Assembly (NCBI RefSeq): GCF_000027225.1
Contig: NC_013892.1
Span: forward strand, 434,001-498,000
Direction: 5' to 3'
Length of the DNA: 64,000 nucleotides
From: Xenorhabdus bovienii SS-2004
GTDB taxonomy: Bacteria > Pseudomonadota > Gammaproteobacteria > Enterobacterales > Enterobacteriaceae
In this document: positions 4,302-34,611 of the stretch, one piece after another
Layout: each line of letters begins with the position of its first letter
Position numbering within the stretch: the first letter of the stretch is position 1
Position numbers and translations under genes: made by a program
The notes under the pieces: model-generated
Database searches by the model: none
What the model was told of the DNA's origin: nothing
Seen by the model: the letters and a program-made list of their open reading frames with translations, nothing else

Positions 4302-4323
4302 GATTGAGGAATTGAGAGGCAGG

Positions 4324-5097: not shown

Positions 5098-5178
5098 TGT
5101 ATTTCTCCAAATCAATAATGTGTCACTATGCTTATTTGAGCTTAACGGGTTTACGCTGAGTCTAAACGTCACAGCCCG

Positions 5179-8147: not shown

Positions 8148-8203
8148 TTTTTTAATTTAAATGGTTTATGAATAATTAAAAAACACCCATAATTTTATTC
8201 TGA

Positions 8204-8977: not shown

Positions 8978-9462
8978 TATTTCTCCAAGAGTTATAATTA
9001 AAAAATCACACTTACTATGATAATGGGAATGATAGAATTTTCGTATATAAAATAATGTTATATCTTATTTGGGATATTTTTCTCATGATTTCATCTGTTT
9101 ATGCTGAAAATAACAGTAGAAATACATTCTTATTAGCGTGTTATTCAGATTATTAAACTATTTCTGTAACTAAAATATTCACCATTATTAGAATGAGTTT
9201 TGTTCATTATATATTGATTGATTATTCTCATATTGAAGTATGTCACAAATATCACTAAACCAGTTGCTATGATATTCGACCTGCTATATCTTGGCCTGTA
9301 AATGAATAACTTATTGAGTATTATGTCATTTTATAGTAAAACCTTTATGGCCATATCCTTCATCTTTCAGGTTGCTGCCGCGATGCAACCCGAAATCTAT
9401 CGGGTATATATTGCTGATATAAAATTCGTCGATTATTCTACAAATTTAAATATAGGTGCCAA
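8978..9462. other. Intergenic region with a dispersed palindrome
   Basis: These 485 bases separate the divergent binding-protein gene and azlC-like gene. They are AT-rich, contain the palindromic repeat at 9353-9419, and otherwise show no gene. Confidence 0.5.
9353..9419. repeat. Dispersed imperfect palindromic repeat, copy 1
   Basis: The left arm (CATCTTTCAGGTTGC) and right arm (GCAACCCGAAATCTATCGGG) are an imperfect inverted repeat able to fold into a long hairpin. A second member with the same arms (CATCTTTCAAGTTGC and TAACTTGAAATCTATTTTGG) is at 32020-32078. Small intergenic palindromes of this sort are typical REP/MITE-like elements in enterobacteria. Confidence 0.65.
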
Positions 9463-10170
9463 GTGCTGAATCCATTATTTAGGAAAGGCATGGTTGATTC
9501 TTTACCTGTCTGTATCTCCTTTTTTCTTATCTTTGCTTCGATTGGAGCGTTGTATCAACGTCACGGCATTCCATTAATGGAAACGTTGGTCGGTTCGTTG
9601 CTGATCTATGCGGCACCATTGCAGGTGGCTGCGGTAGGGTATCTTGCCGATGGGGCAGTGCTTTCTGTTATTATTTTGGCATTGCTGATCAATTTTCGCT
9701 TTTTCTTGATGGCAATGGTGATGTCACAATATTTTCAGGGTATTCCGAAGCGGAATATTTTACTGGCGATGTTAGGATTCAGTGCCAGTACTTATACCGT
9801 GGCGCATTCACATATTTCCGCAGAGAATATCAAGGGTGGAAAATCCCAGTTTACTTTCTATTTGGGAATTGCTATACCCTGTTTTGTCATTACATTTTGT
9901 GCCACCTTACTGGGATATGTTTCTGCGGAATACCTTAATTATGAATCCCTCTCGTTATTTCTGATGATGCTGGTTCCCATTCATTTTGCTTCTTTAACCG
10001 CCAAACGTGCAGGCAAGGATATGTCAGTCATGGCGACGGTTATGGGGGGGTTGTGTGCGCCATTGTTGAATGAAGTGAACATGAAATTAGTGGATCTGGT
10101 GATACCGATTTTGTGTGGAGTATTCATCGCACTATTTGAACGGAAAACCAGAAAGGATAGATCATCGTGA
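9463..10170 (+). CDS. AzlC-family branched-chain amino-acid exporter subunit
   Basis: The 235-residue hydrophobic protein has the AzlC/YgaZ layout of several transmembrane helices, with the family's early segment around FLIFASIGALYQRHG and a conserved RFFLMAMVMSQYF region. With its small partner it would export branched-chain or related amino acids across the inner membrane. The start is GTG with TAGGTG a few bases upstream. Its stop overlaps the start of the small partner gene by a few bases. Confidence 0.85.
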   Translation: MLNPLFRKGMVDSLPVCISFFLIFASIGALYQRHGIPLMETLVGSLLIYAAPLQVAAVGYLADGAVLSVIILALLINFRFFLMAMVMSQYFQGIPKRNILLAMLGFSASTYTVAHSHISAENIKGGKSQFTFYLGIAIPCFVITFCATLLGYVSAEYLNYESLSLFLMMLVPIHFASLTAKRAGKDMSVMATVMGGLCAPLLNEVNMKLVDLVIPILCGVFIALFERKTRKDRSS

Positions 10171-15295: not shown

Positions 15296-16804
15296 TTAAT
15301 CATCCGCATTCAGACCTGCACGATTTAACAGGAATTGTGCTAAGAGCGCAACCGGACGACCTGTTGCTCCTTTGGCTTTACCTGAACGCCATGCTGTGCC
15401 TGCAATATCCAGATGCGCCCAATTGTATTTGGTCGTAAAGCGGGACAGGAAACAGCCTGCGGTAATCGTCCCGCCAGCGCGTCCACCAATGTTTGCCATA
15501 TCTGCAAAATTGGAATCGAGCTGCTCGAAATATTCGTCAGCCATTGGCAGGCGCCATGCACGATCTCCAGCCTGTTCTGAGGCATTCAGCAGTTCATGTG
15601 CCAGCGGGTTATGGTTGGACATCAGCCCGGTATAGTGACTGCCCAGCGCAATAACACAAGCGCCAGTCAAGGTAGCCACATCAATAACCAGTTCTGGATC
15701 GAAACGCTCAACGTAGGTCAACACGTCACACAGCACCAGGCGGCCTTCTGCATCGGTGTTCAGGACTTCAACTGTCTGGCCGGACATGGTGGTCAAAATG
15801 TCTCCCGGACGGAAGGCACGTCCACCCGGCATATTTTCACATCCCGCCAATACACCAATAACATTGAGCGGCAGTTGCAGTTCTGCAATAACCCGCATGA
15901 CACCATAAACAGAAGCTGCGCCACACATGTCATACTTCATCTCATCCATGCCTTCGCCTGGTTTGAGAGAAATACCACCGGCATCGAAAGTCAGCCCTTT
16001 GCCCACCAGTACGATGGGTTTCGCATTGGCGTCTTTGCTGCCTTTATACTCGATCACGGACATCAGGGATTCATTCTGGGAACCTTGACCGACCGCCAGA
16101 TAAGAATTCATACCCAGCTCTTTCATCTGCTCTTCGCCAATCACCTTGGTATTCAGGTTGTCGGCAGTGTCAGCAAGCTGGCGCGCCTGTGATGCCAGAT
16201 ATGCGGCATTACAGATATTCGGCGGCATGTTTGCCAGATCTTTCGACGCTTTGATACCCGATGCAATGGCAAGGCCATGCTGAATGGCGCGTTCGCCGCT
16301 GGTTAATTCACGGCGGGTTGGCACATTGAACACTATCTTACGCAATGGGCGGCGCAGTTCGTTTTTACTGCTTTTAAGCTGATCGAAAACATAGAGTGAT
16401 TCTTTTGCTGTTTCGACCGCTTGACGCACTTTCCAGTAGTTATTGCGTCCCTTGACGTGTAATTCGGTCAGGAAACAGACCGCTTCCATAGAGCCGGTCT
16501 CATTGAGGGTACTGATGGTTTTCTGGATAATCTGCTTATACTGGCGCTCATCCAGCTCACGCTCTTTTCCGCAACCAACCAGCAAAATGCGCTCAGACAG
16601 CACATTAGGAACATGATGAAGCAACAGGGATTGACCCACTTTGCCTTCAAGTTCACCACGGCGTAGTAAGGCACTGATATAACCGTTACTTATTTTGTCA
16701 AGTTGCTCTGCGATAGGGGAAAGACGACGAGGTTCAAACACGCCGACAATAATACACGCACTGCGCTGTTTCTCCGGACTACCGCTTTTTACACTAAACT
16801 CCAT
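15296..16804 (-). CDS. pepA: Leucyl aminopeptidase PepA
   Basis: This cytosolic dizinc/manganese M17 aminopeptidase removes N-terminal residues from peptides. The 502-residue protein has the signature [10 protein letters not shown] and the metal-binding lysine/aspartate block [16 protein letters not shown]. coli PepA (503 residues) is also a DNA-binding protein that acts in Xer recombination at plasmid sites and in carAB control; that second role is inferred here. It is divergent from lptF, as in E. coli. Confidence 0.97.
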
Positions 16805-17084
16805 GCGTTCTCCTGAATCTTAAAGACAAAGACGGATACAATCGCTAAAATATCACGTTGCGCATTAATTCATCCCAAAGAAAATTCACTGTTATGTTAA
16901 GCTCACCGCATTATTTTTTGGTACTTAGCTAACGATAAGTGTGTTCTAATTGGGGACCAATATATGGGATGCTTTGGTATCATTTTAGCAATGGGGAAGC
17001 CAAACTGATGCATATAAATGGTAGATATACGACGAAGTTAGCGACTTTCCTGCAAAAAGACAAGTTTTCACAGGCGTAATAAGC

Positions 17085-18185
17085 GTGATCATCATTAGAT
17101 ATCTAGTACGGGAAACTCTGAAAAGCCAAATCGCAATACTTTTCATCTTATTGCTGATCTTCTTCAGCCAAAAATTAGTTGAAGTATTGGGTGCGGCGGT
17201 TGAAGGAAGTGTTCCCGCAAATTTGGTTCTATCCTTGTTAGGTTTAGGTGTGCCGGAAATGGCGCAGCTTATTTTACCCCTGAGTCTGTTTCTTGGGGTA
17301 TTAATGACGTTCAGCAAACTCTATACCGAAAGTGAGATTACCGTCATGCATGCCTGTGGGTTGGGCAAAGGTGTGTTGGTAAAATCGGCCTTGATTCTGG
17401 CCTTGTTCACATCAATGCTGGCGGCGGCTAACGTTCTCTGGTTCACTCCGTGGTCTTCTAAATACCAAGAGCAAGTGTTGGCGGATGCAAAAGCTAACCC
17501 AAGTCTTGCGGCCATTATGGAAGGTCAGTTTAAGCCTTCCCGTGATGGCAACATGGTGCTGTATATCGGTGACGTCAAGGGCAATAACTTTGAGAATGTG
17601 TTCCTTGCTCAGCTCCGACCGGTGAATAATCAGCGCCCTTCCGTGGTGATTGCGGATGGCGGCCATATGGAAGAGCGTCCGAATGGTAATCAGGTCGCGG
17701 TACTCCATCAGGGGGTGCGTTATGAAGGCACTGCACTGATGCGTGACTTCCGCATTACCGATTTCAAAAATTATCAGGCGGTGATTGGGCACAAAGCCGC
17801 TGATATTGATAGCGATAAAGTTGAGCAGAAGACATTCTCCCAGCTCTGGCACAAGGGTGACGAAGATTCCCGTGCAGAGCTGCACTGGCGCCTGACCCTG
17901 ATTGTGTCGGTGCTGGTCATGGCGCTGCTGGTGGTTCCATTGAGTGCCGTGAACCCGCGGCAGGGGCGTGTGCTCAGTATGCTGCCTGCTATGCTGCTTT
18001 ACCTGATTTTCTTCCTGCTGCAAAGTTCCCTGCGCTCCAATGGCGGCAGGGGTAAACTCGACCCCGCATTCTGGATGTGGTTGGTCAACGGAGCCTATTT
18101 TGCCTTGGCGCTGGCGCTCAATATGTGGGATACCGTACCCATGCGCAAACTGCGTTCTCGCTTTAAGAATCAAGGAGCGGCCTGA
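17085..18185 (+). CDS. lptF: LPS export permease LptF
   Basis: LptF is one of the two inner-membrane permease subunits of the LptB2FG complex that extracts lipopolysaccharide and drives it along the Lpt bridge. The 366-residue protein opens MIIIRYLVRETLKSQ like its E. coli counterpart. It has N- and C-terminal membrane helices around a periplasmic beta-jellyroll, and the conserved cytoplasmic loop MHACGLGKGVLVK that contacts LptB. The start is GTG, which aligns with the E. coli N terminus. Its stop overlaps the lptG start by one base (TGATG). Confidence 0.97.
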   Translation: MIIIRYLVRETLKSQIAILFILLLIFFSQKLVEVLGAAVEGSVPANLVLSLLGLGVPEMAQLILPLSLFLGVLMTFSKLYTESEITVMHACGLGKGVLVKSALILALFTSMLAAANVLWFTPWSSKYQEQVLADAKANPSLAAIMEGQFKPSRDGNMVLYIGDVKGNNFENVFLAQLRPVNNQRPSVVIADGGHMEERPNGNQVAVLHQGVRYEGTALMRDFRITDFKNYQAVIGHKAADIDSDKVEQKTFSQLWHKGDEDSRAELHWRLTLIVSVLVMALLVVPLSAVNPRQGRVLSMLPAMLLYLIFFLLQSSLRSNGGRGKLDPAFWMWLVNGAYFALALALNMWDTVPMRKLRSRFKNQGAA

Positions 18186-19261
18186 TGTTTGGGGTACTGG
18201 ACAGATATATTGGGCGGACTATCCTGCAAACCATTTTGATGACGCTGTTCACGCTGGTGTCGCTTTCCGGCATCATCAAGTTTGTCGATCAGCTTCGCAA
18301 GGTTGGGCAGGGGGAATATAGCGCGTTTGCTGCTGGCATCTATACGCTGTTGAGTGTTCCTAAAGATATCCAAATCTTCTTTCCGATGGCGGCGCTGCTT
18401 GGAGGGTTATTGGGTCTGGGGGCGCTGGCAACACGCAGTGAACTGGTGGTTATGCAGGCTTCTGGTTTTACTCGCCTGCAAGTGGCGGGTTCAGTCATGA
18501 AAACCGCGATCCCGTTGGTATTTCTGACAATGGTGATCGGTGAATGGGTCGCTCCACAGGGGGAACAAATCGCCCGTAACTATCGTTCCCAGAAGATGTT
18601 TGGTGGCTCCCTGATGTCCACTGCCAAAGGGATGTGGGCGAAAGATGGTAATGATTTTGTCTATATTAAGAGTGTAGACAAGGATAATGCCCTGAGAGAC
18701 GTCAGTATCTATCATTTTGATGACAACAAAAAACTGCTGTCAGTAAAATATGCGGCTACGGCGGTGTATGATCAAAATAACAGGCAGTGGAAATTATCGC
18801 AGGTTGAAGAGTCTGATTTACGTCAGATTGGCCGGATCACGGGCTCACAGCGTATTTCTGCTGAATGGAAAAGCTTGCTGACACCGGAAAAACTGGGCGT
18901 AGTCGCTCTTGATCCGGATGCACTCTCCATTCGCGGGCTTCAGCAGTACATTACTTACCTGAAGCAGGGGCAACAAGATGCCGGTCGTTACCAGCTCAAT
19001 ATGTGGAAGAAAGTCTTTGCCCCTCTGTCTGTTGCGGTCATGATGCTGATGGCACTTTCCTTTATCTTCGGGCCACTGCGCAGTGTGGCAATGGGAGTCA
19101 GGGTCATTGCGGGTATCAGTACAGGCTTCATATTTTATGTCTTGAATGAGATATTTGGCCCATTGAGCTTGGTTTACAGCATGCCACCGCTATTGGGAGC
19201 GCTGCTACCGAGTCTGTTATTCTTTGTAGTGAGTGTTTACTTCCTTCTGCATCGAAAATAA
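18185..19261 (+). CDS. lptG: LPS export permease LptG
   Basis: The 358-residue partner of LptF has the same architecture: N-terminal helices, a periplasmic jellyroll, and C-terminal helices ending SVYFLLHRK. The coupling-helix motif is seen as VVMQASGFTRLQV. The ATG overlaps the lptF stop, indicating translational coupling. A strong bidirectional hairpin follows the stop. Confidence 0.97.
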   Translation: MFGVLDRYIGRTILQTILMTLFTLVSLSGIIKFVDQLRKVGQGEYSAFAAGIYTLLSVPKDIQIFFPMAALLGGLLGLGALATRSELVVMQASGFTRLQVAGSVMKTAIPLVFLTMVIGEWVAPQGEQIARNYRSQKMFGGSLMSTAKGMWAKDGNDFVYIKSVDKDNALRDVSIYHFDDNKKLLSVKYAATAVYDQNNRQWKLSQVEESDLRQIGRITGSQRISAEWKSLLTPEKLGVVALDPDALSIRGLQQYITYLKQGQQDAGRYQLNMWKKVFAPLSVAVMMLMALSFIFGPLRSVAMGVRVIAGISTGFIFYVLNEIFGPLSLVYSMPPLLGALLPSLLFFVVSVYFLLHRK

Positions 19262-19271
19262 CGTTCATCAC

Positions 19272-19317
19272 AAATCACAGCCTGAGCTTTACACTTACAA
19301 ATCTCAGGCTGTGATTT
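19272..19317. terminator. Strong terminator after lptG
   Basis: A perfect 15-bp stem (AAATCACAGCCTGAG / CTCAGGCTGTGATTT) is followed by more T residues on the plus strand and preceded by A residues, so it can work in both directions between convergent lptG and the serine hydrolase gene. Confidence 0.88.
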
Positions 19318-19357
19318 TTCAAGAACATTCCTCTAACACACGATACTCACGACAGAA

Positions 19358-20575
19358 CTATAACTTTCCATGATTTCGTGACAGTGCTGCGACCAATTCA
19401 TTCACCCCGTTAGTGACACGACTGAACTTGCTTTGTTCCTTGCGCGTCATCACCACAAACACACCGATATTTTGCTCAGGGATCATCGCCATATAGGTAT
19501 TGAACCCGCCGCCGCCGCCGGTTTTCTGATAGATGCCCGGCACCCCTTTTTTGGCATCCATATATACCCAGCCAAGCCCGATCCCGTCTGCTTGACCCGC
19601 GACATCCATTCCTGTGATTGACGTCAGATTTTCACGTTTAAAATAGATACCCTGCTCACGGCTGGCGGTCTTCTTCCTCAATTGATTGTGGGAGGATAAA
19701 AACTGCTGCATCCAGCGCTGCATATCTACGGGAGTCGAATAAATCCCGCCACTGCCTGCTGCGGCGATGGTACTGAGACAGGGACTGGGCTTAACCCCTT
19801 CCATTAAACGAGCACATTGGGAACGAGAGGGTGTCAGTGTCGTATCCTTCATGCGATAAGGGCGGGTGATCTCTTCTTGTAGCAGCCGGGTATAGGGTTC
19901 CCCCGTGGCTTTAGAGAGCGCATCCGCCAGTAAATCGTAAGCCAGATTGGAATACGAAGCCGTTGTACCGGGAGCGGCATTCATACCTGCTGTTTTCAGC
20001 CAAGCCCAGCGATTTGATTGTGTTGGCCAGATAAACACCGGCCGCCCCCATTTTCCGCCCGGCTGCTCTCGTGGCAGGCCGCTGGTATGGCTGGCCAGAT
20101 GATACAGGCGGATCGGTTGAGTTATCGCATAATCGGGTACACGCACACCATGATAAGTGTATTTCTGCAACGGATCGGTGATCTTGAGGCGTTCCTTCTG
20201 CGCCAGCTTAATCATGACCTCGCTGGTCATCAGTTTCGTTATCGAAGCAAGGCGGATCACCGAATCCTGTCGCGGACGGGCTCCACTCCCCGGATAAGTC
20301 TCCCCGAAACTGCGATGCACCACCTGATTATTATCGATAATCACCATTGCCATCCCCAACGGATTACCTTCATCAAAGATTGACTGTGCATACTGGTCGA
20401 CCAGAGATGAGGCCATTTTCTTGGTATTATCATTACCCTCAAAAACTTGCCATTTTGTGGTTTTTTTGCCTGATTGCGGAAAATTATTCTGGTGTGCATT
20501 ATCGGGGGCAGCACAAGCCGAAAGCGCCCATGACAGGGCTGAAACAGCAAAAAGTTTATATAACTGTTTGTTCAT
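19358..20575 (-). CDS. Class C beta-lactamase-like serine hydrolase, lipoprotein
   Basis: The 405-residue protein has a lipoprotein signal peptide (lipobox LSAC, cysteine about residue 21) and a beta-lactamase/transpeptidase-like domain. The nucleophile motif is SITK (S-x-x-K), the tyrosine motif is YSN and the third motif is KTGGGG (K-T-G). These mark the family that includes AmpC-type beta-lactamases, D-aminopeptidases and esterases. Whether it acts on beta-lactams, peptidoglycan peptides or esters cannot be told from sequence. A location in the envelope, anchored by lipid, is inferred. Confidence 0.85.
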   Translation of the reverse strand: MNKQLYKLFAVSALSWALSACAAPDNAHQNNFPQSGKKTTKWQVFEGNDNTKKMASSLVDQYAQSIFDEGNPLGMAMVIIDNNQVVHRSFGETYPGSGARPRQDSVIRLASITKLMTSEVMIKLAQKERLKITDPLQKYTYHGVRVPDYAITQPIRLYHLASHTSGLPREQPGGKWGRPVFIWPTQSNRWAWLKTAGMNAAPGTTASYSNLAYDLLADALSKATGEPYTRLLQEEITRPYRMKDTTLTPSRSQCARLMEGVKPSPCLSTIAAAGSGGIYSTPVDMQRWMQQFLSSHNQLRKKTASREQGIYFKRENLTSITGMDVAGQADGIGLGWVYMDAKKGVPGIYQKTGGGGGFNTYMAMIPEQNIGVFVVMTRKEQSKFSRVTNGVNELVAALSRNHGKL

Positions 20576-20620
20576 TTTTTGGATTAACCAATCAGGGAGC
20601 GTTTAATTGGAACAACATTG

Positions 20621-20707
20621 TTATTTCTTTTTCTTAAACAGCGCGATGACAGCGCCAATAATGATACCCACAAGGATACCTATAAAAATATAGCCGATAA
20701 TAGACAT
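20621..20707 (-). CDS. 28-residue membrane protein
   Basis: The frame reads MSIIGYIFIGILVGIIIGAV followed by IALFKKKK and a stop: one glycine-patterned membrane helix and a basic tail that predicts a cytoplasmic C terminus. GAGGT lies 9 bases before the ATG. Size, composition and ribosome-binding site are those of genuine small inner-membrane proteins of enterobacteria. I do not recognise the family. It lies just upstream of the serine hydrolase gene, in the same orientation, with a 45-base gap, so the two could be co-transcribed. Confidence 0.6.
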   Translation of the reverse strand: MSIIGYIFIGILVGIIIGAVIALFKKKK

Positions 20708-20968
20708 GATTGTTTACCTCAGAGCGGTATGTTGTTGTGGAATTATATAAGGTGTTTAAAGGTTGTCTATTGGTAGACGGGGATTGTGGGCGAATGATTT
20801 GTGCTGCTTGAAAGGAAGATGGTCGGGTTTTGAGCGTTTTTAATGGGAAAGGATTAGATATGCTTTTTTTTTCGACACTTGAACAAGATTGAAAGGATAA
20901 GTGTTGCGAATGGACTTCTGACAGGTATAATGACCTCCGTTTTCCGAGTACTTCTCGAATACTTCAGT

Positions 20969-21053
20969 GCCGAAGTGGCGAAATCGGTAGACGCAGTTGA
21001 TTCAAAATCAACCGCCTTCGGGTGTGCCGGTTCGAGTCCGGCCTTCGGCACCA
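20969..21053 (+). tRNA. leuX: tRNA-Leu, anticodon CAA
   Basis: The 85-base gene has all arms and an encoded CCA end. The acceptor stem is GCCGAAG/CTTCGGC, the anticodon stem-loop GTTGA-TTCAAAA-TCAAC gives CAA, it has a long variable arm, and the T-loop is GTTCGAGTC. It is nearly identical in layout to E. coli leuX, a well-known integration site of genomic islands. A P4-type integrase relic follows 118 bases downstream. Confidence 0.97.
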
Positions 21054-21061
21054 TATAAATT

Positions 21062-21088
21062 AAGACGCTAAAAAGCGTCTTTTTTTAC
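21062..21088 (+). terminator. Terminator of the tRNA gene
   Basis: AAGACGCT and AGCGTCTT form an 8-bp stem with a 4-base loop, followed by a run of T residues, directly after the tRNA. Confidence 0.85.
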
Positions 21089-21171
21089 GTCTGAAATCCA
21101 GTCCCCGTAAAGCTCTTCCCGCTTTTCCATTCAACATAAGTCAACCTGATTCAATCTACATCAACTTACTG

Positions 21172-22134
21172 ATGCGGGTACAACTGCGGGTAACGTTTGA
21201 AGTGGTTGCCAGAGACTGGCACGCCAGCAATCAGAAATGGTCGGCATCGCATAGCGCTCGTGTATTGAAAAGTCTCGAAGATAATATCTTCGCTGCTATC
21301 GGTAAGCGGAACATTGCAGAACTGAAAACGCGAGACCTACTTGTACCCATCAAAGCAGTCGAGTCATCCGGACGCCTTGAAGTCGCCGCCCGTTTACAGC
21401 AGCGTACTACCGCGATTATGCGCTTTGCCGTTCAGAGCGGCTTAATCGACTATAACCCTGCGCAAGAGATTGCCGGTGCGGTTGCTACAGCGAAAAGACA
21501 GCATCGTGCTGCTCTGGAACTTAATCGCATTCCTGAATTACTTCACCACATCGATCACTATTCTGGCAGGCCGTTAACTCGACTGGCAGTTGAACTCACT
21601 TTGTTGGTTTTCATCCGTTCAAGCGAGCTGCGTTTTGCCCGCTGGTCAGAAGTGGATTTTGAAAAGGCTATGTGGACGATTCCAGGTGAGCGTGAACCAC
21701 TTGAAGGTGTTAAGCATTCTCAACGTGGTTCGAAGATGCGGACTCCTCATCTTGTTCCCTTGTCGCAACAGGCTCTAGCAATTTTGGAAAAGATTAAAAG
21801 CATGAATGGGAATCGAGAGCTGATTTTTGTAGGCGATCACGATCCGCGTAAACCCATGAGTGAGAATACGGTGAACAAGGCTCTGCGAGTGATGGGTTAT
21901 GACACGAAAACGGAAGTATGTGGGCATGATTTTATCACACTACAGAGTGCCGGTAATACCGATTTAGATAACCTAGAGCGAAATATTCAGGGAAAAATCC
22001 AACATACGGATAATCCAAGAGAACTGGTTGCAACAGAATTGGCTCTTAACTTGCTAACTGAACAAATTGCATCATCCGATGTCCTCAGTGGATCACACCT
22101 TTGGTGGTTCAAGAGAAATGAGCCACTGTGCTAA
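21172..22134 (+). pseudogene. Truncated P4-type integrase with unrelated tail
   Basis: Codons for FEVVARDWHASNQKW through GYDTKTEVCGH match the core-binding and first catalytic parts of P4/CP4-57-type tyrosine integrases, including the first catalytic arginine region (FIRSSELRFARW). Two parts are missing: about 100 N-terminal residues, and everything after CGH, that is the HxxR arginine and the tyrosine nucleophile. From about 21940 the frame continues into some 65 residues that do not look like an integrase (ITLQSAGNTDLDNLERNIQG onward) and overlaps the end of the convergent helicase gene by 42 bases. It cannot be a working recombinase and marks a rearranged island edge. Confidence 0.85.
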
Positions 22135-25100
22135 ATCCGTTAAAGACTCATCGCCAATGTGTTTCAGGCCGAACAGCAAGTCTTCCTGGCGCGGCTGGCC
22201 GAAGACAATACGGTAGAGTGCAAGTTCTCGCTTGAGCCGCTTAAACTTAATGCTCTCTTTGCTGTACGGCAGTATGGGAACCCGGCGCTCGACGCGAGAG
22301 GTTCCTTCTTCAAAAATCCAGTAGGGAATCAAATCCGACTGTCCCGCTTTGCGCTGACTTGCCGCAAGTGCGAAGAGCTGTGTCCATGGATCTGCACTTT
22401 CTGCCAGCGAATGAAGTGCACTCAAACCATAATGCTCGGCAATATTCTTCCTTACCGCATGGCCCTTATAACGATGTACTCGTCCTTCACGCTGCTCCAT
22501 ATCGACTGGGTTTGACGGAAGATTCCAGTGCATCACCGCGTGGCACCAGGTGTGAAAATCGAGTCCCTCTTGCCCGATTGAAGTGGAAGCCAATACAAAG
22601 GGGTGAAAGGGGGAGTTAAACGCATCTTTTACCGACTCTGCATGCGCGACGGCCTGATCCGTGTCGTCCCGCAGTTGGCCGTAGCGTAAGGCAAAGCGGC
22701 AGCGTGTGTACAAATCGCTCCAAGTATAATTACCGCCTTTCGTCTTGAGCTCATCAACGTTCAATTGCGTGGTACGCAGTGAAACCACAGCCTGAATACG
22801 GGGTGCAATAGCCGCCAGTTGCGCTTCGGCGGGTTCATGCTGCAACCCCATCGACTCCAGCAGTGTATGAACATACTCATCCAGCATGGCCTGAATGTTG
22901 CCATCGATGCCATAACGCAGCGTCAGCCGCCAGTAAGTGTCATCGCCTGAGCCGCGTAGTAGCGAAATACTCTCTGCCTGGTTGTAGAGCGAACGAAATC
23001 CTGAAGCGATCTGCGCTGCTGCGGACAATATCTCAGCCGAATCGGTTGCCAGGCCTGTGTCGATACGGCTGAGCGCCCGGAGGGCACATGTTCCGGGGCT
23101 GGCAAGCGCGAAGTCACAGAGAACCTCTGCCAGATCGTCAGGACGTGGGCCGAGGGATATCTTACCATTTGCCACCTCGGCAAACTGGTCGATATGTTCC
23201 TGGAAGTTTTCGGCAGGGTCATTTTGGGATGGCCCGGTATACCAGCCATGTTCGCCCAGCCACCAGTCTGGCGTTTCGGTACGGGCATCCAGCAACGCCG
23301 GGGCTGCCCAGTACCAGCGTTCGTCCGCACGAGACCCCGGTCCGCCATTGGGCAGTGTCTCAAGCAGCGCTTCACATTTCACCGTTGCAATTGCTCTCAC
23401 GGCCTTTACACTCAGCGGCTCACCGGGGTTTTGGCGAGCAATTTCAAGCGGATCGATATGGCGGGCAAGTGTTGGTGACGGTAGCATCCAGGCTATAACG
23501 GGCATTCCGGTGAGGCGGCCATCTTTCGATGATTTTGCAAAATTGAGTAGCGATTTTACTTTTTTTTTGAACTGGCTGTGTAGAATCAGGGGAGCAGCAC
23601 CAACCATTCGTCGTTCAGCTTCATAAGAGCAGACAGTGGCAATCGCATTAGGTACTGCGCTCCAGGCGGAAAAGACCAGCGTTTTGGTCAGACTCTCTTT
23701 GTTGGCATACACCCCATTTGGTGTTGTGTAAGGCAGTGAAGGTGGCATCCACAAAAGCTGCCACATACCTTTATCCAGCGTATCTTCAAACAGCATCCGC
23801 ATTCGTGGATTTGCAGCATCTAATGGCTGGTAGTGTTCCCGCTTTTTTTTCGTCAGCAAGTGAGGTTTTGCTGATTTAACGAGTTTACGCAACGTATCTG
23901 AAGGAGATTTCAGTGCCTTATCTATAAGGGTACGTAATTCGTAATGTTTTAGGAAATTGAAAAGATAAGGCATCGATTTCCAGTATTCGAGGATATCGCG
24001 AGCTTGCACTTCCATGGCTACGCCATCAACGGCCGCAGCGTGATAAAGGTCGGTGGGCGTAATGATTGCTGGTTGCAAGACTTCCTTCGTCATCGCATCT
24101 AGCTTTTGTGTCATCGTTACCCGTTCGGTACGGCACATAACCTGTAATAAAGCGTGCTCAAGTGCATTTTTTGTCTCCGCTGCGTTTTCTGAGGTGTGCA
24201 ACGCGGTACGGTGATCGAGCAAGTGCTGCTGAATATCTTTGATTTGACTGTCATCGTTATACAAAAACTGCAATGTACGGATAAAGTCGGCGTAATGATT
24301 ATCCTCTTCGCTTTCCTGGTCGAGGGTAAACATTTTATACGGGGTCGCCGAGAGTAAGAGCACGCGTACGTCCGGCTGTTCAAAGAGTGCCTTTGCCAGC
24401 AATGCAGCTTCATCATCACCATCTAGCAAGGCTTTAAATCGCTGAAACTCATCAAGGATAACCAGATCGGGTTCCAGCGCAGATAAGCACACAGAAGCCA
24501 GTTTGCTTCTGAGTTTGCCGATCAGTGCGTAGCGCAGTTCAGAATTGTGCGTCTCGCTGTCCTCATCGTCATCGGCGAAATATTCGCACCCCTCCTTCAG
24601 CAGATCATACAGTTCGGCATCGTCTAACACCTTGCGACGAAAATCCTTTGCTAGTTCCCTGTCAATGTCGTCGACAGAAAGCTGGTCAACTGCGGAACAC
24701 CAGCCATGTCGGCTAGCTGTTGCCTGGAGCAGGTTAAGCATCCCCATGCGTAAACGTTCACGACGCTCGCCTTTAGCCAGCGGTAAATCGTACAAAATGC
24801 GATACAGGATCGCGCGCTCTTCTTTATGACCTCCACGGCTGCGGGTGTGATCAAGGGCGGTGTTCGGCGTCAGGCTGATAAAATTAATTCTGTTTTTGCG
24901 CAGAGACCGTACCTGTTTTGGTAGGAATGTCAGTCGCGTTGAGTGTGAAAACTGCGTTTCATTGCTGACGTTTAGGCGCTTGATATTCTGCGTTGCGATG
25001 GCCGCATTTGAACAGATATAAATAATGTCGATACGGTCGACTTTATCCTGCAAATGTTCGATTGTTTTGGCGATGATGCCCCGAGCAACCATCGTTTTTC

Positions 25101-25242
25101 CCAGACCCACTTCATCAGCTACCAAAAAGCGATTTTGCTGTCTATCACCGTAAAATTGCTGAAAAACATAATTCACAGTGCGTTGCTGAAAATCTTTCAA
25201 TCCCGTTAGTGGGGCGATAATACTGGGATGCTTATCGGCCAT
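22093..25242 (-). CDS. SNF2-like superfamily 2 helicase of a defence-type cassette
   Basis: The protein has about 1049 residues from the ATG at 25242, which GGGAGGAC precedes; this start overlaps the PLD gene by 11 bases. Superfamily 2 motifs are visible: Walker A VADEVGLGKT (about residues 41-50), Walker B LVILDEFQRF (about 262), motif III LLLSATPYKM (about 297), motif V GQEGLDFH (about 894) and motif VI QREGRVHRYKGH (about 917). The very long insert between the two RecA-like lobes sets it apart from ordinary remodelers. It is probably a DNA translocase or helicase working with the PLD and DUF6361 proteins. The substrate is unknown. Confidence 0.88.
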   Translation of the reverse strand: MADKHPSIIAPLTGLKDFQQRTVNYVFQQFYGDRQQNRFLVADEVGLGKTMVARGIIAKTIEHLQDKVDRIDIIYICSNAAIATQNIKRLNVSNETQFSHSTRLTFLPKQVRSLRKNRINFISLTPNTALDHTRSRGGHKEERAILYRILYDLPLAKGERRERLRMGMLNLLQATASRHGWCSAVDQLSVDDIDRELAKDFRRKVLDDAELYDLLKEGCEYFADDDEDSETHNSELRYALIGKLRSKLASVCLSALEPDLVILDEFQRFKALLDGDDEAALLAKALFEQPDVRVLLLSATPYKMFTLDQESEEDNHYADFIRTLQFLYNDDSQIKDIQQHLLDHRTALHTSENAAETKNALEHALLQVMCRTERVTMTQKLDAMTKEVLQPAIITPTDLYHAAAVDGVAMEVQARDILEYWKSMPYLFNFLKHYELRTLIDKALKSPSDTLRKLVKSAKPHLLTKKKREHYQPLDAANPRMRMLFEDTLDKGMWQLLWMPPSLPYTTPNGVYANKESLTKTLVFSAWSAVPNAIATVCSYEAERRMVGAAPLILHSQFKKKVKSLLNFAKSSKDGRLTGMPVIAWMLPSPTLARHIDPLEIARQNPGEPLSVKAVRAIATVKCEALLETLPNGGPGSRADERWYWAAPALLDARTETPDWWLGEHGWYTGPSQNDPAENFQEHIDQFAEVANGKISLGPRPDDLAEVLCDFALASPGTCALRALSRIDTGLATDSAEILSAAAQIASGFRSLYNQAESISLLRGSGDDTYWRLTLRYGIDGNIQAMLDEYVHTLLESMGLQHEPAEAQLAAIAPRIQAVVSLRTTQLNVDELKTKGGNYTWSDLYTRCRFALRYGQLRDDTDQAVAHAESVKDAFNSPFHPFVLASTSIGQEGLDFHTWCHAVMHWNLPSNPVDMEQREGRVHRYKGHAVRKNIAEHYGLSALHSLAESADPWTQLFALAASQRKAGQSDLIPYWIFEEGTSRVERRVPILPYSKESIKFKRLKRELALYRIVFGQPRQEDLLFGLKHIGDESLTDLAQWLISLEPPKV

Positions 25243-27028
25243 ATCGTCCTCCCATGGCTGATTCAAATACGGCCCACAGAGCAAGAAAATCTTGCGGAAT
25301 CATGTCGTTCTTCCCTTTTCGCATATTTTCCACCAGCGCGGCGATATCGTTTAAACGTTCGGGTTCGCGGCTATAGATACGTGTCAGCTCTTCCAGAACG
25401 CTGAATTCCTCTCCATTGGCTAGCCCTGTAAAGAAATGACCATCACCGAAGGTATTTTCGGCAAAGAAGGATTGATGCCCCGTTTCACCTATCAACATCA
25501 ACAAGTAACGTAGAAAATCCTGATTCCGCATGCTGCTTTGTAAAATCATTGCGTTGTGATCGGGGGGTAAGGAATCAATTGGCAGATTGAGAACGAACCT
25601 GAGCGATACGTCTGGGTGCGATGTTTTAAGGGAAAACGCTGTCAGTCCGGTAATTGCTTGGACTGAAAACTCTCCGAGTTCTCTTTTATTCTCCTTATTC
25701 GGGTCCTGTAGATTGCAGCTTAACACTTCTGATACCGTTATGGGCCATGCTGTTGCCTGCACAACTCCCGGTAACTTAGGAATCTCGCCAATAAGCCACA
25801 ATGCCCAGCTTTGGTCGTTTTGACCGGGGTGACCATGAAGACTCAATGTAGCTTCAGCAAGCAACGTACGCGCCTGTTCAAGATGGCATTCTGCTTTGAC
25901 ACGCAGGGCATCGGGCTCAAACGGCTGGGCAGGGTCGAAATCTTGCAGATAGCTTCCCATCCCGTCGCTGCTAAGGAGGTCATCAATAGTGCCCGTGTGC
26001 TTTTTCTTACCCTTGAGCGAGACTAAAATTTCGCAGTTTGTTTTCCCCAGTAGCGCCGCGCTGGTGGCGTTCGCTGAGCCCAGAACCAGTTCGCTGTCTC
26101 GGCCATTTTCAAATAGATACGCTTTGGCATGCAGACCGGAGGCAATGATCTCATCAGGTGAGCTCTCGTCGTGCATCTGCCCTTCGGCTGCGTCGTCAAG
26201 ATGAAGCTGGCGCGTGAAAAGGTTGAGCGTCTTTTTACTCAAGGCGAGCAGGGTGTCAGGTCTTGAAATCAGGGCATCAGCTTGTTGGCAATGTTCCACG
26301 ATGTGGCGCAGGGCCTCATCGGTGCAAAACGGTGATATAACCACCGCACGATCCGCTTCGGGTGGCTTCCATTCGTAACCTTCTCCGGGCAGGAAAAACG
26401 CGACTTTATCAAAACCAGCGGGACATTCCCATTCAATATACAACAGTTCATCTGCGAAGCGCTGCGCCTGCTTCCGGCGATGTTTCGCCATTTTTCCCGT
26501 CGCCCGTTTGGGCAATACGGAGAATAAATGCACCAGTGCTTTATTGGCACTTTGCTTACGTTTTACAGGGTAGCCGTCCAACTGCAAAGAGAGGTCCCAG
26601 GACGAATCAGTGGTTAAATTTCGGCTCAGTACTACCAACCGATACATGACTTCGTCTGTTTCAGGATTGATAAAACGAATCGCCCAGATTTTGGGGTGAA
26701 AGACCCCGCGGCCTTTGGCTTTTGATTCAACAATCATATCTTCAAGCAACCCGAACAAAGGGTTGGGCTTGAGCTTTGTGGGAACTTGAATGCGGCCTTT
26801 TTGAACGTATACCGTGATACGTTCGGAATAACGACGAATGGCTTCAAAAATGGATAGCGGATCCTGAGCGCGATTGCTGTCGGTTGCTGTGAAAGCCAAA
26901 TAGACCGGTGCCTGCAGTAAAAATGCCGGGTCGAGTGAGAAGCTTGTAGCTATGGCTTCGTCAAACACCATACCGGGAGGAGAAGTCAGTGCCGAAGTAT
27001 ATAAGCTGCGATTGTTGGGATTTAGCAT
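25232..27028 (-). CDS. Phospholipase D-like (HKD) protein of the cassette
   Basis: The 598-residue protein shows two PLD-type half-sites. The first is FHPKIW (about residue 109) followed by VVLSRNLTTDSS. The second is HAKAYLF (about residue 300) followed by LVLGSANATSAAL, the classical H-x-K ... G-S-x-N pairing. PLD-family enzymes of this type cut phosphodiesters, and in DISARM (DrmC) and BfiI-like systems they are linked to DNA attack. Nuclease activity is inferred. Its ATG overlaps the end of the DUF6361 gene by 7 bases and its end overlaps the helicase start by 11, so the three are one translationally coupled unit. Confidence 0.87.
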   Translation of the reverse strand: MLNPNNRSLYTSALTSPPGMVFDEAIATSFSLDPAFLLQAPVYLAFTATDSNRAQDPLSIFEAIRRYSERITVYVQKGRIQVPTKLKPNPLFGLLEDMIVESKAKGRGVFHPKIWAIRFINPETDEVMYRLVVLSRNLTTDSSWDLSLQLDGYPVKRKQSANKALVHLFSVLPKRATGKMAKHRRKQAQRFADELLYIEWECPAGFDKVAFFLPGEGYEWKPPEADRAVVISPFCTDEALRHIVEHCQQADALISRPDTLLALSKKTLNLFTRQLHLDDAAEGQMHDESSPDEIIASGLHAKAYLFENGRDSELVLGSANATSAALLGKTNCEILVSLKGKKKHTGTIDDLLSSDGMGSYLQDFDPAQPFEPDALRVKAECHLEQARTLLAEATLSLHGHPGQNDQSWALWLIGEIPKLPGVVQATAWPITVSEVLSCNLQDPNKENKRELGEFSVQAITGLTAFSLKTSHPDVSLRFVLNLPIDSLPPDHNAMILQSSMRNQDFLRYLLMLIGETGHQSFFAENTFGDGHFFTGLANGEEFSVLEELTRIYSREPERLNDIAALVENMRKGKNDMIPQDFLALWAVFESAMGGRYGR

Positions 27029-28248
27029 TCTTCTCTCCTGAGGCCGTGCGCCAGATCCTTAAGAACTATTTGGACGTTATGCCAGCGGTAAACCAGCCGC
27101 AGGGTTCCGGCATAGCCACTCCATTGCTCCAGAGAGCGTCTGTTTTTGAAGCGCGAACGTGGGCCTTTGAGGGTTATTTCGCGAGCACGGATTAGATCAC
27201 AAGCTTCTTTACTGGTGAGTAATGTCACAGGGGACTGTTGGATAAGAGCAATCCACTGTTCCACAAAGCGGCGGGTTTTTAGGCTAATGCTATAGCCCGG
27301 TTCGGCGGTGAGTTCCCACATGCGGCCGAGCGACCAGGTAGCGATTTCCTTACGTGGGAGTGCAGTAAACCAGTCGACGAAGTTGTTATTGTGTTGAGAC
27401 AGAAGGTCGTTATCTGAACGCTCTTTGGCGAGCAAATAGTTATAAAGCAGGGCTGCACCGTGCATCGTATAAGAAAAAAGCCGCGCGTGAGTCAGCAGTT
27501 CCTTGAGTTCATCTGGGAACCTCGCGTAATCAGGGTGTTCCCATGGTGAACTCACATCTGCCGGTTCGCTATGCAGCGTCAGCCAGGCCAACAGACTGCC
27601 TTTGCATGACAATTGAATACGATCGCGAAGAAAGCTGGCTTCCTGGCGTGTTAGTGCAAACGTTGCATCATTAGGAAAGTTGGGCGGTGGCGCAGGCAGG
27701 CTGGAGTGCCAGCTCTGGGCTGGTTTATACGCGCTTGTGTCGCCCATATCACCCCGATTTTTTTCAAGGTATTCTCGCTCGCTGATTTCCGTACGTTCGC
27801 GATACAATTCATCCACACGCCGATGATATTCTTCCTGCGACCACATAGTCTCGCGAATACCCCAGCGCCGCAGCCCGGACCAGTAAACGGAGCTGGGCAA
27901 GCGTTTAAGCTTCTCGCGTGAGTTTTTACCAAATGTACCGGCCGAATCTTCGAGCCGGGAGAGTGTGATAATTAAGGCGCGTTCGTCACGGTCGGCCTGA
28001 GTACCAAAGTTTGCGGCGGGTATGCGTTTATTCTCGAGGCGCAGATAGATCCATGGAACAAAAAGCATGTAGCGTAAACGGGTCTGGATGGTGCTGGTTC
28101 CTGGAAATAACTGTTCAGCAAAACTATCTCGGATCGAGCCAATACCCAATTCATCACGGCTCTCTTTTTGTTGAAAGAGCGCAAGAATATTTAACGTTTT
28201 AGCCTGTGTGTCTGCATCGTGATCAAGCCAACCTAACGCGGATGCCAT
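27022..28248 (-). CDS. DUF6361 family protein, first gene of the cassette
   Basis: The 408-residue protein opens MASALGWLDHDADTQAKTLN and has the block RDELGIGSIRDSFAEQLFPG then TSTIQTRLRYMLFVPWIYLR, which I recognise as the uncharacterised DUF6361 family. No catalytic motif is obvious; the protein is rich in aromatic and charged residues, without membrane segments or signal peptide. It is the promoter-proximal gene of a three-gene operon with PLD and helicase genes. A sensor or adaptor role is a guess from context. The 340-base region upstream should hold the operon promoter. Confidence 0.82.
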   Translation of the reverse strand: MASALGWLDHDADTQAKTLNILALFQQKESRDELGIGSIRDSFAEQLFPGTSTIQTRLRYMLFVPWIYLRLENKRIPAANFGTQADRDERALIITLSRLEDSAGTFGKNSREKLKRLPSSVYWSGLRRWGIRETMWSQEEYHRRVDELYRERTEISEREYLEKNRGDMGDTSAYKPAQSWHSSLPAPPPNFPNDATFALTRQEASFLRDRIQLSCKGSLLAWLTLHSEPADVSSPWEHPDYARFPDELKELLTHARLFSYTMHGAALLYNYLLAKERSDNDLLSQHNNNFVDWFTALPRKEIATWSLGRMWELTAEPGYSISLKTRRFVEQWIALIQQSPVTLLTSKEACDLIRAREITLKGPRSRFKNRRSLEQWSGYAGTLRLVYRWHNVQIVLKDLAHGLRREEC

Positions 28249-28591
28249 ATCTAATTCCTTGGTTAAATTTATTATCTGTTGCTTGCTTTTGCATGCATTT
28301 CCAACCGCTCGTTAATCGTCTGTTTTAGGCCGATACAAATATCTCATAGATAATCAATATTCACTCACTGAGTTTTTCCTCGCAAGTGAGATGTCTGGGT
28401 CGTTCTGGCACCGATCATTATCATTGGGAGCGATAAAGGTTCAGCAAACATAATCAGACGTCAGTAGAACGGCGTTAGTCATCCCCAAAAGGGTAGACTG
28501 ACGCCATCCGGTTCAATAGCTTAAAGGGATTAAGAAGGGGATAGCTATGTAGTTGTCACTCTATGAGATGTTGGAGTAAAAACTGTGATAC
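28249..28591. other. Promoter region of the defence-type cassette
   Basis: These 343 bases separate the DUF6361 gene from the YagK/YfjJ-type gene, both read leftwards. I see no gene or clear RNA structure. It should contain the cassette promoter. Confidence 0.4.
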
Positions 28592-29107
28592 TCAGAAATC
28601 AATTCTGCGTGGGCGCCCGGGGACTTCATTGCAGCCGTACAGCAGCAGGCCATGTTTCTGCTGAATTTTGGTCATATACGCCAGTACCTGTCGGATATTG
28701 GCGATACTGCCCGGATCGCTGTAACGTACCGGGATATTGATATCGGCCTCGTAATGCTCTTTAAACTCGCATCGGTGATACCAGCCATCCCGGTCAGTGA
28801 TATCGCTCCATTGCAAACCGGCTTGCTGAGCCCAGGGATATGTGTTCTGAGTTTTGCTACCATCCAGCCAGAACACGACATGGGCATGGTAGTGATGATC
28901 TTCAGTCCATTCGATAACCCAGAAGAAACCGACCACCGCTTCGAGTTGCCGATAATCTCGCAGGAAAAACTTAGCGGTATGATCCTGGTAAAATAGATCT
29001 GTTCGGAATGCACGCAGGCAGGAATAGTGCTCTACCAGTTTGTCGATATGGTTGTTCAGGAGTGACTGTAGAAACCAGTCTGGCTCCCATCGTTTTTTGT
29101 TTTGCAT
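28592..29107 (-). CDS. YagK/YfjJ (inovirus Gp2)-type protein
   Basis: The 171-residue protein resembles the C-terminal domain of YagK/YfjJ and Gp2-like proteins found in P4-like elements, cryptic prophages and inoviruses. It has the central HxH segment HHYHAHVVFWLDG, reminiscent of HUH replication endonucleases, followed by WYHRCEFKEHYEADINIPVRY and a conserved VLAYMTKIQQK. It is somewhat shorter than the roughly 208-residue E. coli relatives. A role in replication of the parent mobile element is inferred. It supports the idea that this segment came from an integrated satellite element. Confidence 0.75.
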   Translation of the reverse strand: MQNKKRWEPDWFLQSLLNNHIDKLVEHYSCLRAFRTDLFYQDHTAKFFLRDYRQLEAVVGFFWVIEWTEDHHYHAHVVFWLDGSKTQNTYPWAQQAGLQWSDITDRDGWYHRCEFKEHYEADINIPVRYSDPGSIANIRQVLAYMTKIQQKHGLLLYGCNEVPGRPRRIDF

Positions 29108-29238
29108 AGGATAAATTTCTTTAGTGCTGGCGAGGACCAGCTAGTGGAATGCACCAGGCCTTCAGGAGGGGCCATGGCTGGGGATCTACATAGATTAAGA
29201 GGATGAATGTAAAAAGGGAGTGCCTATTAATTATATTA

Positions 29239-30076
29239 GGGGCTGTTGACGTTTTGAGTTCATCATTTACTCAACCCACATAGGCAGCCACACAATGGTA
29301 AACGCCAGTGCTAACGTACTGGCATAATTGCGTGCTAATTTATCGTATCTTGTGGCTATTGCCCGGAAATGTTTAATTTTGGCAAAGGCATTTTCCACCA
29401 AATGCCGGTGACAGTATAAATAGTCATCAATGTTTTTATCTGCTCTACGGCTATTTTTTCTATAAGGAATGACCGCTGTCGTAACCTTTGTCCGCTATCA
29501 CAAAGTCCGAAGGGGGCGATTGTTCGACTAAACTTTCCGCATGAACAATGTCATGCACTTGTCCCCCGGATAATTCAAAATGAACAGGCAAGCCGTAACT
29601 ATCGACGGCTAAATGAATTTTGGTAGAAAGTCCTCCCCGACTTTTACCAATGGCTTCATCTTCCACAGAAGCGGCACCTGAACTATGTTGATGAGCCCGA
29701 ACAATACTGCCATCAATGAACAACCATTCTGTATCTGTATTCTCAGATAATAATTTGAATAATAAATTAAAAATAGCTTTCTTAGACCCATCATTAAAGC
29801 GCTTAAAAATGGTGTTCCATTTGCCAAATTCAGTGGGGGCATCTCGCCAGGGACAGCCTGTTCGCATCCGGTAAAGGATCCTCTCGAAAGTCAGATAATG
29901 TTCTTCTTTGTGATATACATATCCACTTTGTTGCATCAATACAGCTAGCTTATTCCATAAAGGTTTTGATAACATTGTTCTTGGCATGATGGTCTGGGGT
30001 AATGGTTTTTTCGCGAAGACAATGATACCAGAGCATCATGCTGTTCAAATTCTCCTCATAAAACGTCAACAGCCCC
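29239..30076 (-). mobile_element. IS5-family element with damaged transposase
   Basis: About 838 bases are bounded by matching ends, GGGGCTGTTGACGTTTT on the left and its inverse on the right. TA flanks both ends, compatible with the short TA/TNA target duplications of the IS427 group. Only one two-part transposase gene is inside, and it has lost coding sequence. Confidence 0.85.
29271..29987 (-). pseudogene. IS5-family transposase with internal deletion
   Basis: The first part (29460-29987, 175 residues) has FIDGSIVRAHQHSSGA with the first DDE aspartate and GGLSTKIHLAVDSYGLPVHF with the second block, and stops after ADKGYDSGHSL. A different frame then gives AVIPYRKNSRRADKNIDDYL and HRHLVENAFAKIKHFRAIA with the catalytic glutamate, to the stop at 29271. 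In intact relatives about 15-20 residues separate GYDS from the IPxRKN block. Here they are nearly adjacent and out of frame, so I infer a small internal deletion rather than programmed frameshifting. Confidence 0.75.
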
Positions 30077-30241
30077 TAGTAACATCACGTTTTATGGGCG
30101 ACAGGCTGCAACGAAAGGATCTCTTGTTACTTGTGGAAATCATTCGGGTAATTTTTCTATCGTAGGTGGTGTGAATTGCTTTTTTTATATGGGAACTAAA
30201 CTGGCTGGAACGTTAGATAGCCAGAGCACTTGCCCTTGCGG
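30077..30241 (+). pseudogene. Fragment of a PAAR-domain protein between two ISs
   Basis: One frame, from about 30080, reads NITFYGRQAATKGSLVTCGN and continues to MGTKLAGTLDSQSTCPCG before running into the IS1 end. The spacing GRxAATKGxxVTCG with a following LAGTLDSxSxCPC is that of PAAR-motif spike proteins, which cap VgrG in type VI secretion. Both ends are cut by insertion sequences, so only this piece remains. No other type VI gene is in the window. Confidence 0.55.
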
Positions 30242-31271: not shown

Positions 31272-31592
31272 TTACACAATCTTCACCGCAGTCCCCGAGA
31301 CAGTGACCATCAACATGCCGCCATTTTTACCAACCGTCTCATAGTCAATATCAATACCGACAACCGCATTGGCTCCTAGCGCTTGGGCTTGTGCATTCAT
31401 TTCCGCGAAGGCGATTTCCCGTGCATTTTTCAATTCTTTCTCATAAGCGCCAGAACGTCCGCCGATGATATCTCTCACCCCAGCAAAAAAATCCTTAATA
31501 ATATTGACCCCAAGAATCGTTTCCCCTGTGACGACACCCAGATATTCCGTGATGGTATGACCTTCCAGCGTAGGTGTTGTTGTATTTTTCAT
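31272..31592 (-). CDS. ybjQ: YbjQ/UPF0145 family protein
   Basis: The 106-residue protein has the conserved signature of the YbjQ family ([20 protein letters not shown], then [19 protein letters not shown]) and the C-terminal [13 protein letters not shown] block. E. coli YbjQ has 107 residues. The family forms pentamers and has been called heavy-metal-binding, but its function is unsettled. It stands alone amid island remnants. A GC-rich hairpin at 31639-31665 lies just upstream of the start. Confidence 0.93.
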
Positions 31593-32920: not shown

Positions 32921-34611
32921 ATGAGAAACAAAAAAAGGAAAAATACAAAAAAAAAGAATCCATTTATCCATTTGAAATAAATGGAGATATTTTATCGGTG
33001 TGCAATAGTATTATAGAATTTCTGGATGAAAATGAGATAACAGAACATCCTGACTATTATATAAGTAAAGCGATTTTAGCAAGAGAGAATAGAGAGTATA
33101 TAACTGAAAGGCAGTCGGTGCTTCATTTACTATTCTTCATAGAAAAAAAACCTATTCTTATAAGTGAACTCTTGAATAAAATAGATGATATGAATCTTAC
33201 AGATAAAACACAATTCCTTCTCGGGATAAATAAATCAACATCTATTTTACATCCATATATTAGAACTATTATTACTTTTATCCTCTCAGGCACTAAGCAG
33301 CAGATAAATTCTTACTTTAATTGTTTTCTGGGACGTTCTCCAAAATATGGTGAGATACCGCCATTCCCTGCCGTTGATACTTTATCTATTGATATCTTGC
33401 TTAATTTCTATGAAGCAACACATAGATTCTTAGTCAACACCTCTTCAGGGCTAGCTATTCTTGAAAAGATGACGAAACTTATCTATGCAGTTGCAAAAGA
33501 AAAATCTAGTCAAAGTGTGCTTTTCTTTATGTCATATTTTAATACAGATATAAACCCCCGTTATGCTATAGATATAGCAAATACTTTCTTTGATGCGGAT
33601 AACATTTCATTAGAAAATAGTGTGTATACTCAATCTTTGGCATATAACACAGCTTTAACTGCAACAAAAATTGGAGATATCAGTGAAGCAGAACACTGGC
33701 TGGATTATATCGATGATGATGATAAAAAGAATAGAATTATATCGATCGTCACAGAAATAGATAAAAAACAAAATGCAAGAAAAAAACACCCATTAAATCC
33801 GAAGAATATTAAAATAAAAAACATTAACGAAATTGAAACGCTTGATCTTATATCAATTTGTTCATTTCTTGATGGTTGTGGTGATGATTGGGGTTTTAAA
33901 GAACTCTATCGATCAGGTAGTTACATTTTTCCATCAAAAATATTGACAACTGAGATGTTTAAGTCGCTAGCTGTCAAAGGAATAATAACTCTAACTCAAC
34001 AGGATTTTGATAACATTGAAAACAAATTACTCAATGATTTTGACCATATTGTTAATAATTTTAAGTTCCATTTAAATGTTATAGGGATTATTGATAATAG
34101 AAAGATCTCCATTAAGATATTCCTAGAGGAGATAGATAGAAGAAAAGATAAATTTGATGCGTCCTTTGAAATGTGGAAGGAAATTTCTACTGGATATTTT
34201 CATGACGCAATGGAGTATTATTTAGGAAATATAAGAGATAGTTGGTCAAATGAGTTCATGCTCAATGAAAAAACTATTGAAAGACTCTCGACTACGTGTT
34301 TGAGTGCAAAAGATCTCTCTTATATAGCAAGTTCATCTGTTAGGTATTCCGCAGGACAACATGCCATTAAATATACACAAAGCAATAGACACACCTGCAA
34401 TACTTTAATTAGCAGTATTAATAAAAATATTGACTGGGTTGAAAGCGATAAATTTCTAGGAAAAGCGTACCCTAGAGGCAAAAAACAGCCAGTTCTATCC
34501 TCTGAAAGGATTATCGAGCATATTACTAATATTAATCCAGATGATTTATACAACAATGTACCAAAATTGACAGAACCAGTCATCAAAGATGAAACTGAAA
34601 GTGATAAATAA
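32921..34611 (+). CDS. Unknown AT-rich protein with an A9 tract near its start
   Basis: The clear open frame runs from GTG 32998 to 34611 (537 residues). It has no signal peptide, long membrane span or motif that I recognise; a short TPR-like stretch (AYNTALTATKIGDISEAEHW) suggests a helical solenoid. Protein-like coding continues upstream of that GTG (KESIYPFEINGDILS), but this frame has no ATG. A good start, ATG 32921 with AGAGG 8 bases upstream, lies one frame away, and the two are separated by nine A residues (32947-32955). Either translation starts at GTG 32998, or a change in the A tract has shifted the real start out of frame. The coding is far more AT-rich than its neighbours, suggesting recent transfer. 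Confidence 0.6.

Follow-up and report, generated by a model that had tools for sequence, protein, structure and literature searches.

The zacABC operon of Xenorhabdus bovienii SS-2004 lies in the 64,000-nucleotide stretch of NC_013892.1 (positions 434,001 to 498,000) analysed here, which we call the window and whose own numbering we use throughout. Judged by its sequence, the operon almost certainly represents Azaca, a previously catalogued anti-phage defence system, in complete form. Its three genes are apparently intact and would have been acquired horizontally and placed at leuX, and we consider it rather probable that this identity and the mechanism proposed below hold jointly.

27022..28248, minus strand: zacA, first gene of the operon, encoding a DUF6361 protein of 408 amino acids (PADLOC, PF19888, AlphaFold model)
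25232..27028, minus strand: zacB, encoding 598 amino acids, with a two-lobe, Tdp1-like domain of the phospholipase D (PLD) superfamily at residues 1-372 and then a C-terminal part to which no fold was assigned
22093..25242, minus strand: zacC, encoding a superfamily 2 (SF2), SNF2/DrmD-like helicase or translocase of 1049 amino acids from its ATG (PADLOC, motif residues)
22085..28361, minus strand: stretch common to the window and loci L016 and L017, comprising zacABC, 113 bases upstream and 8 downstream (blastn)

The assignment is carried by three full-length proteins whose genes are adjacent, on one strand and in the order A-B-C. In PADLOC, ZacA matches its model at E 4.2e-146 (profile positions 1-395 of 396), ZacB at E 2.8e-171 (1-583 of 586) and ZacC at E 0 (9-1016 of 1019). 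The original prediction had treated the genes as an unassigned candidate, a description that falls with these matches, and had inferred a defence system on the leuX island, which is supported now that the operon is recognised as Azaca by PADLOC and named as defence in papers. Across 14 control genomes the ZacC model matched 6 and the ZacB model 5, and the ZacA and DUF6361 models matched none. The predicted DUF6361 domain was recovered by Pfam (PF19888, E 8.3e-62), and re-read coordinates agree with the open reading frames (ORFs) and overlaps first described, of 7 bases between zacA and zacB and 11 between zacB and zacC. The open frame of zacC extends beyond the ATG at 25242 to a TTG at 25284 (22093-25284, 1063 amino acids). 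Support for an Azaca operon thus comes from which genes are present, their order and overlaps, their intact catalytic residues, the purifying selection on them and a patchy distribution. Azaca is reportedly the ZacA, ZacB and ZacC system of Millman and colleagues (2022), in whose work another copy is said to have protected against phage.

The prediction had also likened the genes to DISARM, as a relative without DrmB and the methylase. ZacC does match DrmD models locally (best 3.1e-13), but this similarity is confined to some 60 residues in the C-lobe of the helicase and reaches 56.5 bits against an NCBIfam cut-off of 610. At E ≤ 0.01 ZacB matches only the ZacB and mREase_IV models of PADLOC, and no DrmC model. 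With neither a DrmC-like nor a full-length DrmD match, and with a better family available at full length in Azaca, kinship with DISARM is exceedingly improbable; the sub-threshold DrmD match and the missing DrmC match leave a stripped-down DISARM unsupported.

The two closest relatives of the operon are in an Enterobacter metagenome-assembled genome (L016) and in Serratia bockelmannii (L017). The zacABC proteins are 88-93% identical to theirs, and the ratio of nonsynonymous to synonymous substitution (dN/dS) is 0.08-0.15 for all three, so that these are genes under purifying selection and not chance frames. The common stretch is 89.6% identical to L016, where the alignment continues to 29238, and 88.9% identical to L017, where it stops at 28361; because 22085-28361 is shared with both, zacABC and its 113 upstream bases may travel as a unit.

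A contig scan with ZacA yielded 50 loci, 42 of which carry zacA-zacB-zacC in order on one strand (some cut by the contig end); the contig stops ahead of zacC in five (L029, L041, L059, L060 and L064). Low dN/dS together with this conserved order makes zacABC more than a chance arrangement. In a search that did not start from the window's zacA, 5 of 398 genomes sampled across the phylum and 5 of 260 across the class contained DUF6361. These make up 9 distinct genomes, and in all 9 a ZacB-like gene lies directly beside it (in all 8 when the window's own genome is set aside). The co-occurrence check that the prediction had named has thus been run, and rare co-occurrence is not borne out. Two loci, L079 and L091, hold distant DUF6361 plus ZacB-like sets, L079 with a ZacC-like gene as well; their ZacA-model scores are 126 and 132 bits, versus about 490-510 for other sampled loci, and they possibly form a separate Azaca branch.

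Within the family sample, ZacA occurs in 2 of 295 genomes; the ZacB model (E ≤ 0.001) matches 12, partially in 10 (best 2.8e-9) and in full in the same two that have ZacA. ZacA relatives were found in 45 of 72,556 plasmid records (Cronobacter accounts for 19) and in 1 of 50,697 phage records; in a protein database, 3698 of 7920 candidates match at E ≤ 1e-10 (120 of the 3698 listed). An unannotated ZacA-like frame (26.9% identity, E 2e-22) was seen at MT835621.1:13075-14247, a 24-kb 'Bacteriophage sp.' record from human faecal samples.

Conservation was read from alignments of the window protein with near-full-length locus proteins. ZacC (all 37 such proteins; the zacC frame of L019 is unusable owing to a masked run of N) has DEAD and Helicase_C domains in Pfam, and G46, G48, K49, D264-Q267, S298-T300, Q917, R918, R921 and R924 are invariant in 38 of 38 sequences, with T50 kept in 36. 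The predicted SF2 helicase stands. The single long insert described between its lobes resolves into two stretches: about 218 residues from motif III (298-300) to an invariant K520...F524-S525-x-W527 block, in our reading motif IV, followed by some 360 from that block to motif V (887-895). ZacB (42 of 43 proteins; L046 left out) has a Tdp1-like fold, and its PLDc_2 match lies under the Pfam cut-off (17.4 versus 27 bits). Of the predicted 'two-HKD' protein, the two-lobe PLD superfamily architecture was retained, and the motifs proved to be two H-x-K...N triads without Asp. ZacA (41 of 45 proteins; L041, L045, L047 and L049 left out) has many invariant aromatic and basic residues and is predicted to be all-helical, since its AlphaFold model (predicted local distance difference test score 85.2) consists of helices, with no strand of at least three residues.

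In the literature, the PLD-like domain of Azaca is placed under DNA binding and degradation with reference to Millman et al. 2022 (PMC10952713), ZacC is listed among defence helicases (PMC12278908), and Azaca is recorded in E. coli (PMC10121019), present in Pseudomonas islands (PMC12629846) and counted with systems of unknown mechanism (PMC12926258). Our literature search, with most subscription papers lying outside its reach, returned no mechanistic study of Azaca.

We infer each step of the following mechanism. ZacC would translocate along foreign double-stranded DNA at the expense of ATP, bringing ZacB to its substrate; ZacB, as a Tdp1-like two-lobe H-K-N phosphodiesterase, would cut or trim the strand delivered to it; and ZacA would hold the complex together or recognise the target. 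No DNA methylase was found among 20 window ORFs given to Pfam, including the 10 selected ORFs, apart from zacABC, of at least 100 amino acids between 18185 and 38863, in agreement with the methylase-free locus first described; RlmM at 59006-60103 is an rRNA methyltransferase. For this reason the signal that separates self from non-self would probably be the state of the DNA (ends, breaks, replication intermediates) and not methylation. Finding no methylase among these ORFs would also suit abortive infection, in which phage DNA or damage is sensed by ZacC, which then sets ZacB loose on DNA generally, so that the host dies. Hachiman (PMC12278908) joins a sensor helicase to a nuclease effector and reacts to DNA damage, and Azaca has like parts; against this, no sequence feature was found that distinguishes selective from general cutting, and we regard abortive infection as unlikely, while giving it some weight.

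An AddA-like gene (UvrD helicase with PDDEXK) and/or an AddB-like gene (PDDEXK) adjoins the operon in 16 of the 50 loci, and both do in 13; the domains were read in L044 and L026, and the counts rest on matches at E 1e-20. Fifteen of the 16 belong, by their record titles, to what we take to be Alphaproteobacteria, in which the pair lies upstream and mostly ends no more than about 15 bases from where zacA starts (in L044, the pair at 4273-10004 ends at 10004 and zacA starts at 10001). In L026, a Nitrosomonas, the pair (16272-21220) is downstream, beginning 7 bases past zacC. The sequences of L041 and L055 start within the AddA-like gene; L047 has an AddB-like fragment alone, which counts against strict coupling there, and no pair was seen at E 1e-20 in the other Alphaproteobacteria L038, L051 and L061. 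Because 4 of 5 genomes examined have another AddA-sized frame elsewhere (1110-1209 amino acids, helicase-motif similarity; none seen in G298), the pair beside zacABC is probably distinct from the housekeeping AddAB. An AddB-like relative at E ≤ 1e-30 occurs in 1 of 398 and 1 of 260 sampled genomes, both times G600, which has Azaca with the pair, and is absent at that threshold from 4 of 5 DUF6361 genomes of the class sample. The association is suggestive, with small numbers, and our literature search found no paper treating Azaca and AddAB together. Tentatively, and with slightly less than even confidence, we propose a five-gene subtype of Azaca in which zacABC is joined by a dedicated AddB/AddA-like pair, coupled to the operon in Alphaproteobacteria (chiefly Rhodobacterales) and placed after zacC in a Nitrosomonas. 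DNA ends or breaks would then be what Azaca acts on, ZacA would have a new helical fold and ZacB would be a defence nuclease of the Tdp1-like kind.

The same pair, together with the Tdp1-like fold of ZacB, would fit a DNA-repair or recombination module that has no defence role and in which ZacB cleans blocked 3' ends as Tdp1 does. Such a module sits poorly with an operon that is rare and patchy even in its own family and occurs on plasmids. Some neighbours, moreover, match type III restriction-modification, Zorya and Druantia models in PADLOC (99 of 143 listed ORFs scanned, 94 in two batches with the best 25 families of each, plus 5 more; no matched control), and Azaca is named as defence in PMC10952713, PMC12278908 and PMC10121019; we hold the repair reading to be improbable.

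Several findings weigh against our main reading, identity and mechanism taken together. A lone N-terminal piece of zacA is present in 3 of the 50 loci (about 10 kb of sequence follows it in L057 and L065, about 1 kb in L045), and zacA is interrupted in L030. The PLD fold includes lipid and polyphosphate enzymes too, so that DNA can be named only as the inferred substrate of ZacB, and no fold clue was obtained for ZacA. The full AddB/AddA-like pair was not seen in 37 of the 50 loci, some of them without flank. No sigma-70-like site was found before zacA, and 21900-28700 has 2 such sites versus 7.0 expected, both within zacC; expression of the operon in this genome is therefore putative. The original observation is sound, and the system that it describes is a known one. 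The locus contributes one further Azaca copy, at an integration site of a familiar kind. Most worth pursuing are the association with AddAB-like genes and the Tdp1-like nature of ZacB. The mechanism becomes testable through concrete mutants and partners, which are offered by the H-K-N triads, the motifs of ZacC and the AddAB-like neighbour.

Other neighbours were noted in passing. A type III restriction-modification pair lies just 3' of zacC in both close relatives (L016:16317-20805 and L017:16317-20805), outside the stretch common with the window, and L017 has a LeoB-like dynamin gene upstream of zacA. DUF2357 genes (in L042 with PDDEXK_7) and a partner ORF without a Pfam match stand upstream of zacA at L020:5435-9722 and L042:5896-9537, a possible further Azaca-associated pair.

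The surroundings of the operon in the window contain the following features.

20969..21053, plus strand: tRNA-Leu(CAA), which we take to be leuX, probable insertion target (ARAGORN)
21172..22134, plus strand: P4-type integrase remnant, an ORF of 320 amino acids with both ends broken (Phage_integrase profile only 3-131 of 172)
28592..29107, minus strand: Rep/G2P-like ORF upstream of zacA (REP_ORF2-G2P E 2.4e-5, 25 bits versus a cut-off of 27.8)
29234..30081, minus strand: IS4/5-family element with 22-nucleotide inverted repeats at 29234-29255 and 30060-30081
29460-29987: transposase ORF of 175 amino acids within that element (DUF4096, and DDE_Tnp_1 over profile positions 7-88 of 200)
31272..31592, minus strand: ybjQ-like gene, right of the variable stretch (YbjQ_1 E 3e-39; kept in 2 of 4 relatives searched)
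42766-44166: gene for an RtcB RNA ligase, also to the right of the variable stretch (Pfam)

A search of 20 relatives at the DNA level did not find the operon in any of them; the 12 that belong to the same genus all have the leuX flank. Integrase-like DNA lies near leuX in two relatives (L084 and L085), in L084 as an intact frame of 415 amino acids. The window ORF corresponds to about residues 97-344 of that protein, without about the first 96 and the last 70 residues, and this ORF and zacC overlap at their 3' ends. Of the integrase-marked leuX island first described, the island is supported and the marking integrase is broken; truncated at both ends, it has probably left the island no longer self-mobile by this route. 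The Rep/G2P-like ORF is inside the stretch common to L016 and outside that common to L017 (blastn). The distance from leuX to ybjQ is 56.5 kb in G682, on one contig, versus 10.2 kb in the window, and this colinearity was not seen in the other three relatives tested. A second stretch in G682 that resembles the leuX end (L085:6061-6220) matches window 21033-21192 at 79%; some 14 kb separate it from leuX, and it is perhaps the attachment site of another island. No Pfam match at E 0.001 was found for the window ORFs 32998-34611 (537 amino acids) and 40920-42344 (474 amino acids).

Compared with Azaca elsewhere, the window copy has the same full-length proteins, order and strand, with no essential difference seen, and is without the type III restriction-modification neighbour of the L016 and L017 copies. 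Unlike Tdp1 and PLD3, ZacB has an extra C-terminal region and belongs to a three-gene operon. It shows a profile match to 7clg (E 1.1e-4); the nuclease of the type IV restriction enzyme SauUSI is of the PLD type. Its likeness to R.NgoAVII (4rct) is weak (Foldseek E 1.3e-5, but template modelling scores of 0.18/0.29 and a root-mean-square deviation of 16.5; profile E 0.25). SauUSI also couples its nuclease to a helicase-like ATPase, but within a single protein whose nuclease domains mediate dimerisation (PMC7913695), whereas Azaca uses separate proteins. CglI/NgoAVII shares with Azaca a separate nuclease and SF2 ATPase, and its R proteins are homodimers (PMC4267653), whereas ZacB holds both PLD lobes in one chain and Azaca has a DUF6361 partner, and no methylase was found near the window copy. 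Given this negative and the differing subunits, we do not file Azaca under either system; by analogy, it most likely works like CglI/NgoAVII or SauUSI.

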